Of a stretch of DNA of 49,810 nt, positions 1,922-48,725 are shown piece after piece. Source of the DNA: Terriglobia bacterium. GTDB lineage: Bacteria; Acidobacteriota; Terriglobia; JAIQFV01. Position numbers and translations under genes: made by a program. The notes below the pieces were generated by a model, which was not told the origin of the DNA, did not search any database, and worked only from the letters and a program-made list of their open reading frames with translations. Within the stretch, counting starts at the first letter, position 1; each line of letters opens with the position of its first letter. The stretch is from contig JAIQFV010000027.1 in assembly GCA_020073085.1 (NCBI GenBank), positions 1 to 49,810 of the forward strand, given 5' to 3'.

Positions 1922-1959
1922 TTTGTTCAGTGCAGCCGGGGTTGAGGGAGCCTGCGGAA

Positions 1960-2212
1960 ATTCCAAAGTCCAAAAGCCAAATTCCAAATAAAAGCCAAAT
2001 TCCAATATCCAACCTCAAAACAAAACCCAAATCTCAAAATCTGAAAAACTAATCGACAATATTGTTGCCCGAGAAAAGCAAATGCCATAGAGGTTTGGGA
2101 AGCCCTTATGGAATTCCTTTGTTTGGATTTTGGACTTTAAATTTTGTTTGAAATTTGGCTTTTGGAATTTGGATTTTATTTGGATTTTGGATATTGGGAT
2201 TTAGAATTTGCC
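1960..2212. repeat. AT-rich dispersed repeat, two inverted arms
   Basis: About 1965-2015 consists of words such as attccaaagtcc, aaagccaaattcc and aaataaaagcc. About 2125-2212 carries the same vocabulary on the other strand (tttggcttttgg, aatttggatttta, tttggatattggg). The two arms are inverted around a 110-bp centre between tRNA-Ser and serS. The composition is unlike the neighbouring genes. The same family occurs between the ABC permease genes (45160-45413). Short open frames rich in FGFWxLEFG in these places are repeat translations, not genes. Confidence 0.75.
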
Positions 2213-3505
2213 TCACTGAGCCGGTTCAATCACCTCCATCCCCTCCATGTACGGCCTCAGGGCTTCGGGAATGACCACACTGCCGTTCTTCTGCTGATAG
2301 TTTTCGACAATGGCCAGCCAGGTGCGGCCCACTGCCAGTCCGCTTCCATTGAGCGTGTGAACGAAATCCACCTTGCCCTTCTCCCGTGGCCGGTACCGGA
2401 TGTTAGCCCGGCGCGCCTGAAACGCCTCAAAATTGGAGCAGGAGGAAATCTCCCGAAAGCCGTTCTGAGACGGCAACCACACCTCAATATCATAGGTCTT
2501 GGCGGAGGAGAACCCCATGTCGCCGGTGCAGAGCGTGACGACACGGTAGTGGAGGTTCAGTTTTTGCAGGATGGTTTCCGCATCCCGTGTCAGCTTTTCG
2601 TGTTCCTGGTAGGAGGTATCCGGTCGAGAGAACTTTACCAACTCCACCTTGTTAAACTGGTGCTGGCGGATCAGCCCCCGGGTATCCTTGCCGTAGCTTC
2701 CCGCTTCACTCCGAAAGCATGGAGTGTAGGCGCACAGAGAAATCGGCAGCTGGGCTTCATCAAGAATTTCATCCCGGTAGATGTTCGTCACGGGCACCTC
2801 GGCGGTCGGGATCATCCACAGGTCACGCGTCTCTTCCCCTACCTTCAGCCGAAACAGGTCCTCCGCAAATTTGGGGAGATTTCCGGTGCCGAGCAGCGAA
2901 GCGGAATTCACGATAAAGGGCGGCAGCACTTCGGTGTAGCTGTTCTCCTTGGTCTGGACATCCAGCATGAAATTGATCAGGGCGCGTTCCATCCGTGCCC
3001 CGACGCCCTTATACAGCGCGAACCGAGCGCCGGAAATCTTGGAGGCCCGTTCAAAATCAAGGATTCCCAGGGTCTCGCCCAGATCGGTATGATCTTTCGC
3101 CTGAAAATTGAAGGAGGGCGGAGTGCCCCATCTCCGTTCTTCGCGGTTCTCCTCCGCGGTCTTCCCGACCGGCACTGTCTCATGCGGGATATTGGGGACC
3201 ACGAGAAGCCAATCGCGGAGTTTCAAATCCAGTTCCCGGACTTTCAAGTCGAAGTCGGTAATTTGATCGGAAACGGCCTTCATCTCGGCGATCTTTGAAG
3301 AGGCGTCCTGCTTGTTTTTCTTCAAGACCGCGATCTCTTCAGAGGCTTTATTCCGCGTAGCTTTCAGCTGCTCCCCCTGGGTCAACAGCTCACGCCGCCG
3401 TTTGTCGACCGTTGAGAACTCTTCCAGGCTGAGAGCGATCCCGCGCTGCGCCGTTCTTTCGATTACCCGATCCGGGTGATTGCGCACAAATGAGACATCA
3501 AGCAT
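2213..3505 (-). CDS. serS: Serine--tRNA ligase
   Basis: This class II aminoacyl-tRNA synthetase of 430 residues charges tRNA-Ser with serine in the cytoplasm. The start is set at ATG 3505 ([12 protein letters not shown], the usual SerRS N-terminus), with GGGA about six bases upstream; an upstream in-frame start would add ten unconserved residues. Residues about 1-105 form the long antiparallel coiled coil that binds the tRNA variable arm. The catalytic core follows, with motif 2 around [20 protein letters not shown] and motif 3 around [19 protein letters not shown] near the C-terminus. Length matches bacterial SerRS. The gene has its own promoter at 3581-3610 and lies upstream of the gene for one of its substrate tRNAs. 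No T-box-like leader is evident. Confidence 0.97.
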
Positions 3506-43562: not shown

Positions 43563-43942
43563 ATTCCATCCTTCCTTAACGCAGCGTTAGGCAAGCCAGA
43601 CCGGAACCCCGGATCCTGCATCTCCAGGTGAGGATCATTCCGCCCACAACGAAACGCCCCGGAGTCCTCCCTCAGTATCAATTTTGCTACGGCCCGCGCA
43701 AGGGCGATGATACAATCCGGATCGTTAGAATGAACTCTCTGAATCTGCCTCACACTGATTTCCGGCGGGAACGGTGTCGTCCGGAGGCGTGCTGAGAGGA
43801 GAAGCGGCCCTTGGTCGGTGCGCCCGAGTAGCTAGACAGCGGGATCCCCTCCTCTGCAGACTCCGATCCAGGCAACGCTCCGGTGGGACGAAGAGTTTCA
43901 GAGGGCAAGCATCGCTCTCATCTCTCGATTAGGGAACAGGGC
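43563..43942. other. Intergenic region between the wsp and ABC operons
   Basis: About 380 bases with no supported gene. TAACGC-A-GCGTTA (43577-43589) is a perfect short palindrome just after wspR but lacks a T-run. An extended -10 motif TGATACAAT (43708-43716) has no good -35 and may or may not drive the ABC operon. Confidence 0.5.
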
Positions 43943-45091
43943 ATGACCCTTGCACGATTTGTTTACAAGAATACCTTCCGTAACAAGCGCCGGAGTATCC
44001 TGACCGTCCTGAGCATCAGCTTCTCGCTTTTGCTCCTGACCCTGATGATCACGGTCTATCGAGGGTTTTATATTGACCAGGGACCGGCTGATTCAGCCCT
44101 CCGGCTCATCACCCGACACCGTGTGTCGTTGAATTTCTTCATGCCGTCTTACTATCGTGAAAAGATACGGGCTGTCCCCGGCGTGGTCCAGGTTTCTCCC
44201 CTGAACTGGTTTGGCGGCATCTACAAGGACACCAAACCTGAAAATTTTTTCGCTCAATTTGGAACTGACCCGCAGGAGATCTTCAAAGTCCACAACGAGT
44301 GGAAAATCCCCTCCGACCAGCTCACCGCCTGGCAGAGGGATCGCGCGGGAACCGTGGTTTCAACCACCCTCGCCAAAAAATACGGCTGGAAGATCGGGGA
44401 TCGCCTTGTCATCAAGGGCAATATCTTTCCAGTCGATTTGGAACTCACGATCCGGGGAATCTTTGATGCCGGGGAGGAATTCAACTCTTTGCTTTTCGAC
44501 AAAGAGTATGTGGAGGAAGCCGTGGCCTGGGCCAAAGGTCAGGCGGGCACCTTTGCGATCCGGGTGGCCTCCCCCGATGATGTTTCCCGGGTGGCCGCGG
44601 GGATTGACGATACGTTTCGCAACTCCCCGGCGCCGACGCGAACGGAAAGCGAGAAAGACTTCCTGCTCGAGTTTGTCGCGATGATGGGGAACGTGAAGGC
44701 CTTTATCCTGAGTATTGCCCTGGCCGTGACCTTCGCCATTCTGCTGGTTTCAGCCAACACGATGGCGATGTCGGTCCGCGAGCGGATTCGGGAAGTCGCG
44801 ATCTTGAAAACCCTGGGGTTCACGCAGTCGACCGTCCTGGTGCTGTTCGTCGCGGAAGCCATGTTCCTGGCTCTGGTGGGAGGCTTGCTGGGCGCTTTCG
44901 CGGCCAAAGGGCTCATCGCGGGCGCGAGCCATTCGCCCATGGGCGACATGATGGCGGGCATGAGGGTGACCGGTTTCACCTTCGTGATCTCCCTTGGTGT
45001 GGCCGCCCTGGTGGGATTCGCCAGCGCCTTCGTGCCGGCCTTCCGGGCTTCCCGCTTGAATATCGTGGAGGGCCTGAGGCACATTGGGTGA
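43943..45091 (+). CDS. ABC transporter permease, FtsX/MacB type (first)
   Basis: A 382-residue membrane permease. One N-terminal helix (about 15-40, starting near RRSILTVLSISFSLLLLTLM) is followed by a large periplasmic domain and three C-terminal helices with the FtsX-domain sequence RERIREVAILKTLGFTQSTV and a closing SAFVPAFRASRLNIVEGLRHI. The start is ATG 43943, just after AGGGAACAGGG; the longer frame to 43883 adds 20 polar residues. It is the first gene of a four-gene unit with a second permease, a membrane fusion protein and an ATPase. The stop codon lies at the edge of a repeat-rich spacer. Confidence 0.92.
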   Translation: MTLARFVYKNTFRNKRRSILTVLSISFSLLLLTLMITVYRGFYIDQGPADSALRLITRHRVSLNFFMPSYYREKIRAVPGVVQVSPLNWFGGIYKDTKPENFFAQFGTDPQEIFKVHNEWKIPSDQLTAWQRDRAGTVVSTTLAKKYGWKIGDRLVIKGNIFPVDLELTIRGIFDAGEEFNSLLFDKEYVEEAVAWAKGQAGTFAIRVASPDDVSRVAAGIDDTFRNSPAPTRTESEKDFLLEFVAMMGNVKAFILSIALAVTFAILLVSANTMAMSVRERIREVAILKTLGFTQSTVLVLFVAEAMFLALVGGLLGAFAAKGLIAGASHSPMGDMMAGMRVTGFTFVISLGVAALVGFASAFVPAFRASRLNIVEGLRHIG

Positions 45092-45413
45092 TTGCGGCTT
45101 GCGGATTGCCGATTGCGGATTTCAGATTGCGGAGTTGCGATTTTGTTCATGGTTTTGGCCTTTGGAAATTGGTCCTTGGAATTTGGGTTTTATTTGGAAT
45201 TTGGACTTTGGATTTTGGAATTTGCTCTCAACTTAATTGCAGGGTCCGTTCTTTGGAAATTGGTCCTTGGAATTTGGGTTTTATTTGGACTTTGGATTTT
45301 GGATTTTGGAATTTGCTCTCAACTTAATTGCGGGGTCCGTTCTTTGGAAATTGGTCCTTGGAATTTGGGTTTTATTTGGAATTTGGACTTTGGATTTTGG
45401 AATTTGCCTTTAG
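45090..45413. repeat. Repeat-built intergenic spacer with 91-bp tandem repeat
   Basis: From the stop of the first permease, several GATTGCGG words (about 45090-45145) are followed by a 91-bp tandem repeat. Units start at 45161, 45252 and 45343, each with TTTGGAAATTGGTCCTTGG, a run of TTTGGAATTTGG-type words, then CTCAACTTAATTGC and GGGTCCGTT. The third unit is truncated at about 45413, four bases before the next start codon. Units differ by few substitutions and no indels. The open frame across it is a repeat translation, not a gene. Confidence 0.9.
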
Positions 45414-45416
45414 ATT

Positions 45417-46577
45417 ATGGCTATTCCCATCACCTATAACATCCGGAACCTGCGGTTGCGATTGGGCGCCACTCTAATGACGGCCCTGGGCATCGCGCTC
45501 ACAGTCACCGTGGCGCTGTTCATCATGGCCTTGTTGAGTGGTTTGAATAGCGCGTTCAAGACGAGTGGAAGCCCCTTGAACGTATTAGTTCTGCGCAAGG
45601 GCTCCACAGCGGAACTGAACAGCACCGTCACCCGGGCTCAGATGCAGGACCTCAGGTATCTGACCGGGGTTTCCCAGGATAGTGCCGGGGAACCTTTGGC
45701 CTCCGGGGAAATGGTGGTCGTCATTGTTCTGCCTCGAAAGAATGGTTCTGGAGAAACCAATGTCACCGTGCGCGGGATGACCCCGGTAGGTTTCAAGCTC
45801 CGACCCACAGTGCAGTTGGCTGAAGGCCGTTGGTTTACTCCAGGGCAGCGCGAGGTGGTGGTGAGTCAATCGATCCACGAGCGGTTTGACGACACATCGC
45901 TGGGAAATTCCCTTGAATTCGGGAAGGGGAAATGGACCGTCGTGGGAATTTTCAATGCGCGGGGGACAACGCACGACTCCGAGATTTGGGCCGACGTGAA
46001 CCAGATGGGTGCGGACTTCGACCGGACCGAGTACTCTTCGGCCCTGTTGAGGGCCACGGACCCCGTGGCAGCCGACGCATTAAAGCATCGCATGAGCGAC
46101 GATCAACGGCTCAAGCTCGATGGGATGATCGAACAGGAATACTACGCGACCCAAACCCAATCCGGCAAACCCATCCAGTTTGTGGGCACGCTGGTCGCCA
46201 TCATTATGGCTATCGGATCCTGTTTCGCCGCGATGAACACCATGTACGCCGCGGTGGCATACCGGTCCCGCGAAATCGCTACGCTTCGCATTCTCGGGTT
46301 TTCCCGATCCAGCATCCTGACCTCTTTTGTCATAGAATCCGTGTTACTGTCGATCCTGGGCGGTTCGATCGGGATCCTCTTGATGTTGCCTTTCAACGGC
46401 CTGACCACCGGAACCTCAAACATGGTCACATTCAGCGAAGTCGTCTTCAACCTGAGGATCACGCCGGTCGTCGCCTCCACGGCGCTGGGGTTCGCCGTCA
46501 TCATGGGGCTCTTTGGAGGATTGGCCCCCGCCTGGCACGCCGCCAAAGAGAATATCCTGACAGCATTGAGGGATTAG
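45417..46577 (+). CDS. ABC transporter permease, FtsX/MacB type (second)
   Basis: A 386-residue permease of the same design as the one before it: an N-terminal helix (about 15-42), a periplasmic domain, and three C-terminal helices with the conserved segment YRSREIATLRILGFSRSSIL and the closing LAPAWHAAKENILTALRD. The two permeases presumably form a heterodimer. The start is ATG 45417, right after the third copy of the 91-bp repeat. The bases before it are repeat-derived and hold no good ribosome binding site (GGAATTTGCC is the best), so its translation may depend on the repeat. Followed by the fusion protein after 53 nt. Confidence 0.92.
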   Translation: MAIPITYNIRNLRLRLGATLMTALGIALTVTVALFIMALLSGLNSAFKTSGSPLNVLVLRKGSTAELNSTVTRAQMQDLRYLTGVSQDSAGEPLASGEMVVVIVLPRKNGSGETNVTVRGMTPVGFKLRPTVQLAEGRWFTPGQREVVVSQSIHERFDDTSLGNSLEFGKGKWTVVGIFNARGTTHDSEIWADVNQMGADFDRTEYSSALLRATDPVAADALKHRMSDDQRLKLDGMIEQEYYATQTQSGKPIQFVGTLVAIIMAIGSCFAAMNTMYAAVAYRSREIATLRILGFSRSSILTSFVIESVLLSILGGSIGILLMLPFNGLTTGTSNMVTFSEVVFNLRITPVVASTALGFAVIMGLFGGLAPAWHAAKENILTALRD

Positions 46578-46630: not shown

Positions 46631-47992
46631 ATGCCGATTGACACCAAATACGACGAGCTCAAAAACCTGAAGATTGACCGCGCGAGTGGAACAAACAATG
46701 CCTCGGGCTGGTCGAAACGGTACATCCTGATTGGAATCGCCGTGGTGGTGGTATTGAGCCTCTCGATGCTGGCCTACCGGGTCCTGACGCCCGCGGCCAC
46801 GGAAGTCGAGGTCACCCGCGCGGTGGTGGACAGCGCCACTTCATCTTCCATCATCCTGAATGCGGCGGGCTATATCGTCGCCCACCATAAGATCAATGTG
46901 AACTCAAAAGTGACCGGGCGCATCGCCTGGATTGGCGTCGAAAAGGGCGACAAAGTCAAACAGGATCAAGTCCTGGTCCGGCTCGAGGACCGGGAATTCC
47001 GGGCCCAGGTGGAACAGGCCCGAGGCACCGCGGCCGCGGCGGCCGCGAGATTGAAGGCCCTGGAGACCGGTTCGCGCCCCCAGGAGATCGCCGGAGCCCT
47101 TCACAACCTCGAACAGGCCCGCGCCAATCTCGTCAACGCCAAGGCGACCCTGGATCGAACCCGCGACCTCGTCGCCCAGGGCGTCTTCACGCACCAGCAA
47201 CTCGACGACGCCATCGGACGCTATGACTCCGCCAGGGAGCAGGCCAGCTCGCTTGAGAAAGTTTATGAGTTGGTGCGTATCGGTCCGCGCCAGGAGGACA
47301 TCGATCAGGCCCGGGGCCAGCTCGTCGAAGCGCAGGGACAGCTTAATTACGCGGAGACATTGCTGGACGCGACACTCATTCGCGCGCCCGTCAGTGGAAC
47401 CATTCTTGAGCGCACCGCGGAGAAGGGCGAACTGGTCACGTCGCAATTCGCCAGCGGGGCGGAAGGCGGTCCGCGTGGTTCCGTCGTGACCCTGGCGGAC
47501 TTGAATGACCTCCAGGTCGAACTCGACATCAGTCAGGACGACTTCGCCAAACTCACCCCCCAACAGCGGGGGATCGTCACGACCGACGCGTTTCCAGACC
47601 GAAAGTACGATGGGACCATCGACGAAATCTCCCCGGAAGCAAACCGCCAGAAAGCCACCGTCCAGGTCAAGGTCAAGATCCTAAGTCCGGACGAATACCT
47701 CCGACCCGAAATGAATGCGAAGGTGGCGTTTTTGCCGAGCCAAGGAGATAACAAAACGCCCCGCGGATCGAATGCGGCGCTTGTCCCTCAAAACGCCGTC
47801 CGCGATCGTGAGGGGAAGAAGTATGTCCTGATCGCGTTCGACGGGAAGGTTCTGGCCCGCGAGGTCCGGATGGCGGGTCAGCGCAGCGGGGGCGTCATGG
47901 TCGAGGGACTGACGGGCGGCGAAAATATCATCGTGAACCCACCGGCCGGATTGAAAGAAGGGAACCGGATCCGGCTGAAGGAATCCAAGTGA
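46631..47992 (+). CDS. Membrane fusion (HlyD/MacA-like) protein
   Basis: A 453-residue periplasmic adaptor. An N-terminal membrane anchor (about residues 31-52) is followed by a lipoyl/barrel-sandwich part ([20 protein letters not shown]), then a long alpha-helical hairpin (about 110-225) rich in Ala, Glu and Arg. The lipoyl half then returns ([20 protein letters not shown]), and beta-barrel and membrane-proximal domains end near [12 protein letters not shown]. It would bridge the FtsX-type permeases to an outer-membrane channel for export. No outer-membrane component is in the window. Next gene starts 13 nt after its stop. Confidence 0.9.
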
Positions 47993-48005
47993 AAGGACCT
48001 TGTTG

Positions 48006-48725
48006 ATGCCGACCGTTGCAGAGGAGCCGAAGGGAACCGCCGCCATTCCCAAAAGGATTGTTCAGGCGCGCGGTGTAAGCCGCGTATTCCGGCGCGACAG
48101 TTTTGAGGTCAAGGCTTTGGATGAGGCTTCCCTGGAGATCACGGCGGGGGACTTCCTCGCTTTGATGGGTCCCTCGGGCTCCGGCAAGACCACCCTGCTG
48201 AATCTGATTGCGGCCATCGATCATCCCACCTCCGGTGAACTCTTGGTCATGGGGGAGAATATCTTCCGGCTCAACGACAAGGAAATTTCACGCTGGCGCA
48301 ACGAGCACATCGGCTATGTCTTTCAGACCTTCAATCTGATCCCGGTCCTCACCGCGGCGGAAAACGTGGAACTCCCTTTGCTGCTGACGGGTCTTTCCAA
48401 ATCCCAGAGGAAAGAGCACGTCACCACCTCGCTGAAGCTGGTGGGGCTTGAAGATCGAGTGAACCATTTGCCCAAGCAGCTTTCCGGCGGCCAGGAACAA
48501 CGCGTCGCGATTGCCCGCGCCATTGTGACGGATCCGACCCTTGTTCTGGCGGATGAGCCGACCGGCGACCTGGACAGCCATTCCGCCACTGAGGTTTTGG
48601 AGATCCTGAAACGCCTCAACGAGGACTTCCACAAGACCATCGTCATGGTGACCCACGATCCCCATGCCGCCGCTTACGCCCACACCACAAGGCATTTGGA
48701 GAAGGGACAATTGTTGCCAGCGTGA
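48006..48725 (+). CDS. ABC transporter ATP-binding protein (MacB/LolD-type)
   Basis: A 239-residue ATPase. Walker A is GPSGSGKTT (near residues 55-62), the Q-loop [12 protein letters not shown], the signature [15 protein letters not shown], Walker [12 protein letters not shown], and the H-loop VTHDPHAA. The signature has Glu where LSGGQ(Q/R)QRV is common, a mild variation. The start is placed at ATG 48006; two TTG codons just before could also be used. AAAGG lies nine bases upstream. Last gene of the operon; its stop is 27 nt from the RHS fragment. Confidence 0.95.

Follow-up and report, generated by a model that had tools for sequence, protein, structure and literature searches.

The DNA analysed here, called the window, is a stretch of 49,810 nt from a Terriglobia bacterium whose genome (the source genome, G000) is 5.79 Mb in size and 98.7% complete. 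On its forward strand it carries an operon in the order permease 1, permease 2, HlyD-type adaptor and ABC ATPase. Permease 1 (MacB_PCD + FtsX; 43883..45091) has a GTG start and ends with the TGA at 45089-45091, permease 2 (MacB_PCD + FtsX; 45417..46577) begins with an ATG that is conserved in its orthologs, the closest of which are found in Acidobacteriota MAGs, and the HlyD-type periplasmic adaptor (46631..47992) and the ATPase (48000..48725, start TTG as listed) complete the operon. The spacer between the permease genes is repetitive and begins within the permease 1 stop codon, as the original prediction had it: an array of GATTGCG-type heptamers (45090..45139, forward strand) overlaps the TGA. 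It is followed, on the same strand, by TTTGGAA-type heptamers organized into a 91-bp unit, the first copy of which (45160..45250) contains a register-breaking TTTTA, the second (45251..45341) is 97% identical to the first and the third (45342..45407) is 100% identical and comprises the first 66 bases only. The array at 45160-45407 was scored by TRF as 2.7 copies of 91 bp with 96% matches (score 475), and at period 7 the same program resolved the 91-bp unit internally into 7-bp units, so that it consists of tandem heptamers in intergenic DNA. With one mismatch allowed, the pattern TTTGGAATTTGG was counted 26 times in the window, where 0.49 occurrences would be expected, and 0 of 100 shuffles reached 26. 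The three units predicted at 45161, 45252 and 45343 are thus recovered at 45160, 45251 and 45342, in the same 91-base register with a one-base shift, but the third is incomplete. The repeat had also been said to run to within four bases of the ATG at 45417; this was not borne out, as the match stops at 45407 and leaves nine bases, CTTTAGATT (45408..45416, forward strand), which are at best a degenerate heptamer.

It was further proposed that the ribosome binding region of permease 2 is derived from the repeat. The leader is indeed repeat-derived, yet the repeat supplies no recognisable Shine-Dalgarno (SD) sequence: an SD core (GGAG, GAGG or AGGA) is absent at -18 to -5 of the ATG. Such an absence is not unusual for this gene, since only 30 of 92 permease 2 orthologs have a core and 62 lack it. 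The array fills the leader up to nine bases before the ATG, and it could be imagined, in line with the idea behind the original prediction, that the number of 91-bp units tunes permease 2 expression as a translational or phase-variation switch; the accessible text of a study on Beggiatoaceae proposes that heptamers upstream of start codons act in translation (PMC4679880). Against such a switch stand the leader without SD core and an RNA without special structure, with z -1.25 for the spacer and z 0.03 around the permease 2 start. A frame of 115 codons (45092-45439) opens with TTG right after the permease 1 stop, crosses the whole low-complexity array and terminates 23 bases inside permease 2; it is probably due to chance, as pure TTTGGAA arrays contain no stops in all frames.

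The change in operon spacing that had been anticipated is evident when orthologous loci are compared. The permeases are 325 nt apart here, while in the 92 of 94 orthologous loci that were measured the median stop-to-start gap is 13.5 nt; 67 gaps are of at most 25 nt, 15 of 26-100 nt, nine of 101-200 nt and one exceeds 200 nt, these counts being slightly inflated by duplicate genomes (L053/L132 and L059/L133, probably also L091/L136 and L090/L135). In the congener (G001) the gap is 51 nt long, begins with TTGCGG after the same TGA and holds a single TTTGGAATTT, and no 91-bp unit or inverted match was found in it, which also speaks against a switch operated by unit number. The operon orthologs of this congener (L247) are 95% (ATPase), 76% (HlyD), 70% (permease 2) and 67% (permease 1) identical to those of the source genome, and many other gene pairs compared between the two genomes show more than 80% identity; judged from these sequences, the permeases may have undergone unusually fast or mosaic evolution.

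Occupied versions of the junction exist among the relatives next to the near-empty ones. In the genome G003 the gap measures 458 nt and consists of a TTCCGAG array, an ORF for an IVP (23S-rRNA-intervening-sequence protein, a four-helix bundle) and the inverse array, which stops seven bases before the ATG. This IVP has 125 aa and matches PF05635 (E 1.6e-36) and TIGR02436 (E 2.3e-34), and the cassette folds with z -6.88 (0/100 shuffles). Inverted arrays scoring above all 100 shuffles were detected at the junctions of L139, together with an IVP, and of L140, L071 and L138, where they are ORF-less. From the gap contents it follows that, in different lineages, at least three or four kinds of repeat have come to lie at this junction.

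The 91-bp unit belongs to a dispersed family. It gave 77 matches in the source genome and, in its two nearest relatives, 62 (the congener) and 45 (a family relative, G002), and among 38 other class members drawn, three (G008, G011, G020) held six weak matches altogether. Many copies are inverted pairs, '-' and then '+', in which a TTCCAAA array, a spacer and a TTTGGAA array follow one another; 43 clusters of the family, many of the '-+' type, were counted in 36 stretches around copies, of which two belong to the window. One complete, ORF-less pair lies in the window itself at 1938-2217, with a left arm of TTCCAAA heptamers (1939..2023, minus strand, ortholog in the congener) and a right arm of TTTGGAA heptamers (2112..2217, plus strand), and the region 1935-2220 folds with z -4.24 (0/200 shuffles). 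A third fragment of the family (ATTCCAAATTCCAAAGGCCAAAATC) lies unpaired at 1425-1465 in left-arm orientation. The array between the permeases has the right-arm orientation only and offers no inverted ends able to pair. Tandem amplification of arms is found elsewhere as well, in four copies at L039 and L034 and in three at L015, and at L023 only the right arm is present while its counterpart in the congener (L216) has both.

Could such an array have grown in place? According to this explanation, replication slippage in T/G-rich low-complexity DNA would have produced first the heptamers and then the 91-bp block, with no mobile ancestry, as for the heptamer STRRs of cyanobacteria. The period-7 substructure and the near-identity of the 91-bp copies would agree with it, as would the 7-bp insertions and deletions seen between orthologous copies, and the short TTTGGAATTT in the gap of the congener is a possible seed. 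However, copies at unlinked loci are up to 98% identical over 48-50 bases and, as read by eye, share the register-breaking TTTTA; because this interruption is common to them, the copies are taken to be related by descent. Independent slippage would yield neither the common TTTTA nor the inverted-pair arrangement, and we regard growth by slippage without mobile ancestry as unlikely.

The comparison with the congener informs on the age of the family. Both flanking genes lay within the G001 stretches for 18 of the 43 clusters, and 17 of these 18 comparable copies are at the same place in both genomes; as the G001 stretches were picked for holding copies, this means that many copies are old, and not that absence is rare. 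With the same selection of stretches, no active transposition was seen. The spacers between the arms have diverged between orthologous copies, and the arms have stayed heptamer arrays. Per-locus compensatory change of the arms was considered as a sign of selected hairpins and rejected as proof of function: in 11 orthologous pairs complementarity was 35.4 within and 36.2 between genomes, being higher within in 5 of 11 (p 0.85). True arms pair better than random ones within the source genome (p 0.0006), and not clearly so within G001 (p 0.09). The absence of locus-by-locus co-evolution weakens the idea that a hairpin is selected at each locus. Among 14 copies with classified neighbours, from stretches picked for holding copies, seven lie between codirectional genes, seven between convergent genes and none between divergent ones. 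The family thus occurs also downstream of genes, with half of the classified copies between convergent ones, which is hard to combine with a role in translation, and a switch based on unit number seems very improbable to us.

Some loci of the family show further features. The locus L039 (2036-2551) contains four heptamer arrays in alternation with a REP-like palindrome (AACCCCGATGAATCGGGGT); this palindrome is similar to the inverted sequences that flank a Y1 transposase gene at L277. At L041 an insertion into a palindrome was noticed by eye, and part of this palindrome resembles a parS site. A gene pair at L034 (6682-8015) that resembles HigB/HigA toxin-antitoxin genes is enclosed by a left and a right arm with 1.1 kb between them, and the protein encoded between the widely spaced arms of L010 resembles hemerythrin types. 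L010 and L034 were considered as ORF-bearing elements and rejected, and their arms were read as belonging to two separate copies that flank ordinary genes.

The gene that does recur between such arms encodes an IVP. PF05635 has 13 matches in the source genome, 12 of them above the cut-off and, in a scan of the whole genome, none within the window; there was also no match in 14 control genomes. One of these genes (C5:152697) sits between TTCCAAA and TTTGGAA arms, a setting found for a single gene in each of G001 and G002 as well, and IVPs are encoded in related cassettes, e.g., L031 and L250 of G003. Inverted arrays are present on both sides of 9 of the 13 source-genome matches, each with a repeat of its own, and 4 of the 13 are without them. 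In order to quantify this arrangement, the 500 bases left of each gene were aligned to the reverse complement of the 500 bases right of it (SW score), and the null was formed by 841 permuted left/right pairs. The acidobacterial sample comprised 62 IVP loci, of which those drawn from the phylum, one per genome, were among the best-scoring matches listed (99 of 199 genomes had matches; the rate among weaker members may differ), and of the 57 with full flanks 49 had matching inverted arrays with SW of at least 15 and 37 exceeded 18.5, the 99th percentile of the permuted pairs. Among controls from the same genome, SW of at least 15 was seen for 4 of 196 genes (220 aa or longer) and for 5 of 329 ORFs (100-160 aa). 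The arrays at IVP loci have mostly period 7, some period 8. On plasmids, 16 of 18 IVP loci reached SW 14 versus 5.9% of permuted pairs, this set being 18 of 27 matches, 15 from Cyanobacteriota and one each from Bacteroidota, Pseudomonadota and Gemmatimonadota. The more alike two IVPs are, the more alike their arrays tend to be (Mantel r 0.252, p 0.0005 over 64 loci; r 0.216, p 0.0005 once close pairs are removed), a correlation for which descent of entire cassettes from a common ancestor accounts no less well than recognition. By eye, in these 64 loci the upstream arm on the IVP coding strand is usually G-rich (AGTGGTC, GGGACCT, CAGTTCT), with exceptions that include the TTCCAAA family. Three of the plasmid cassettes (L259, L265, L266) lie inside CRISPR operons, two between cas6 and cas4 and one between cas10 and a cmr3-type gene, and at L257, on a plasmid of Nostoc edaphicum, a cassette lies in opposite orientation between two ribonucleotide reductase subunit genes.

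The GATTGCG heptamers at the left end of the spacer are also dispersed, with 26 matches in G000, 37 in G001 and four in G002 (E up to 1), of which many are weak. The match at C7:44129-44170 of G002 is the arm beside the IVP gene of L208. With GATTGCG likewise dispersed and one of its matches forming an arm at an IVP locus, we read the window spacer as composed of arms from two families.

A different enzyme could be considered responsible for the dispersal. In such a scheme the family would be a REP/REPIN-like palindromic element moved by Y1 (IS200-like) transposases and the IVP a mere passenger. Y1_Tnp matches are numerous (19 in G000, 36 in G001 and 10 in G002), inverted flanks with SW of at least 18.5 occur at 13 of the 19 Y1 loci examined, and some heptamer arrays alternate with REP-like palindromes, as at L039. 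Yet the Y1 flanks are other palindromes with little 7-periodicity (0.33-0.64 at lag 7), whereas the array-bearing flanks of IVP genes mostly reach 0.5-0.96 at lag 7, or another short lag, e.g., 8, in a comparison made over slightly different lengths of sequence. Among the best inverted matches at the 19 Y1 loci no TTTGGAA arrays were found, and the Y1 transposase was rejected as the linked gene; of all the explanations considered, dispersal by Y1 with the IVP as passenger is the one to which we give least credence. Reverse transcriptase (PF00078), with five matches in G000, one in G001 and none in G002, was likewise discarded as a constant companion.

IVS elements, MITEs, heptamer repeats and REPINs are already known, and against this background the array in the window is an ordinary relic. 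The IVS in the rRNA of Coxiella burnetii, as presented in the accessible part of PMC4990558, is likewise a small element with inverted ends forming a stem around an IVP-type (S23) ORF; the same source regards such IVSs as selfish and states that RNase III removes them from the RNA, and a mobile origin had been suggested before. It lies in a 23S rRNA helix, whereas the elements considered here occupy gaps between protein genes, in many cases within operons, the window array between two permease genes; their ends are 7-8-bp arrays with a different repeat per IVP subgroup, and the copy in the window has neither an ORF nor a partner arm. Inverted ends that pair in RNA, characteristic of IVSs, are lacking in the window array and present in the 1935-2220 pair and in the G003 cassette. 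With MITEs, e.g., the Porphyromonas gingivalis MITE with an internal minisatellite (PMC4596501, from the text available), the family has in common many short ORF-less inverted copies and one ORF-bearing relative; many dispersed copies with terminal inverted repeats are found in the family too, while the window array itself is one-armed. The difference lies in the only recurring internal ORF, which encodes an IVP and not a known transposase, with one ORF-bearing relative per genome. The heptamers of cyanobacteria and Beggiatoaceae (TAACTGA) are also dispersed tandem repeats of intergenic DNA, often near start codons, but in the accessible portion of PMC4679880 they are almost only direct repeats and no IVP-related terms appear, whereas the arrays described here are paired, inverted and linked to IVPs. 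REPIN/RAYT systems (PMC3116915) likewise consist of palindromic elements scattered over intergenic DNA, to which a small gene is linked; the family described here is linked to an IVP instead of a Y1 transposase and its arms are heptamer arrays. Avd, an accessory protein of diversity-generating retroelements, is described in the accessible part of PMC10053308 as a four-helix bundle related to PF05635, and the IVP of L152 is a weak match to the Avd model (26.8 bits against a cut-off of 80).

Taken together, we estimate at roughly 0.7 the probability that the array between the permeases is a one-armed, tandemly amplified relic of a dispersed family of inverted-heptamer elements tied to IVP cassettes. 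An element of this kind would have landed, by a past transposition, in the tiny gap between two co-transcribed permease genes, its left partner arm would then have been lost, and the remaining right arm, in TTTGGAA orientation, would have been triplicated in tandem as a 91-bp block. Because no relative has a complete TTTGGAA pair at the permease junction, the loss of the left arm at this site is something we infer; the array may alternatively have arisen by capture of a fragment or by local growth of heptamers through slippage. The family would belong with the cassettes in which an IVP gene lies between inverted 7-8-bp arrays, and most of its copies would, MITE-like, have lost the IVP gene or never had it. 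In transcripts, complete pairs would form long hairpins that RNase III might cut as in rRNA IVSs, and it is proposed that such cutting would make an insertion between operon genes tolerable. The one-armed copy in the window could form no such hairpin. Its role is probably limited to that of a long spacer and SD-less leader keeping permease 2 apart from permease 1, although effects on permease 2 translation are possible; we think that the array is a by-product of insertion where harm is small, and presumably neutral.

A broader reading is offered tentatively, on the basis of the co-variation of IVPs and arrays over 64 loci and of the occupied versus near-empty versions of the junction. The IVP genes outside rRNA may constitute a widespread mobile element, in which the protein would recognise its own short-period repeat and the array at both ends would match the IVP lineage. 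Such elements might have spread, perhaps in the form of RNA or aided by host factors, into operon gaps, including those of cas, ribonucleotide reductase and transporter operons, leaving behind ORF-less pairs and one-armed relics. Co-inheritance alone could also be the source of the correlation between IVPs and arrays. A literature search that covered few subscription papers and no bioRxiv preprints turned up no title or opening of an abstract describing IVP genes between heptamer arrays, which is not proof of novelty.

The array in the window is minor in itself and illustrates the appearance of such an element once one arm is gone. IVPs (S23, four helix bundle) were originally noticed in rRNA intervening sequences. 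In the accessible text of PMC4990558 the IVP-type protein is called hypothetical, and PMC10910872, of which part was available, names the 23S rRNA IVP in the legend of a figure that deals with associations of CRISPR adaptation modules. With IVPs placed regularly between inverted short-period arrays at gene junctions, and with protein and repeat changing in step, their function becomes amenable to a direct test of binding. As far as can be judged from sequences, the array-flanked cassettes also suggest an explanation for the IVP genes that lie beside cas genes.
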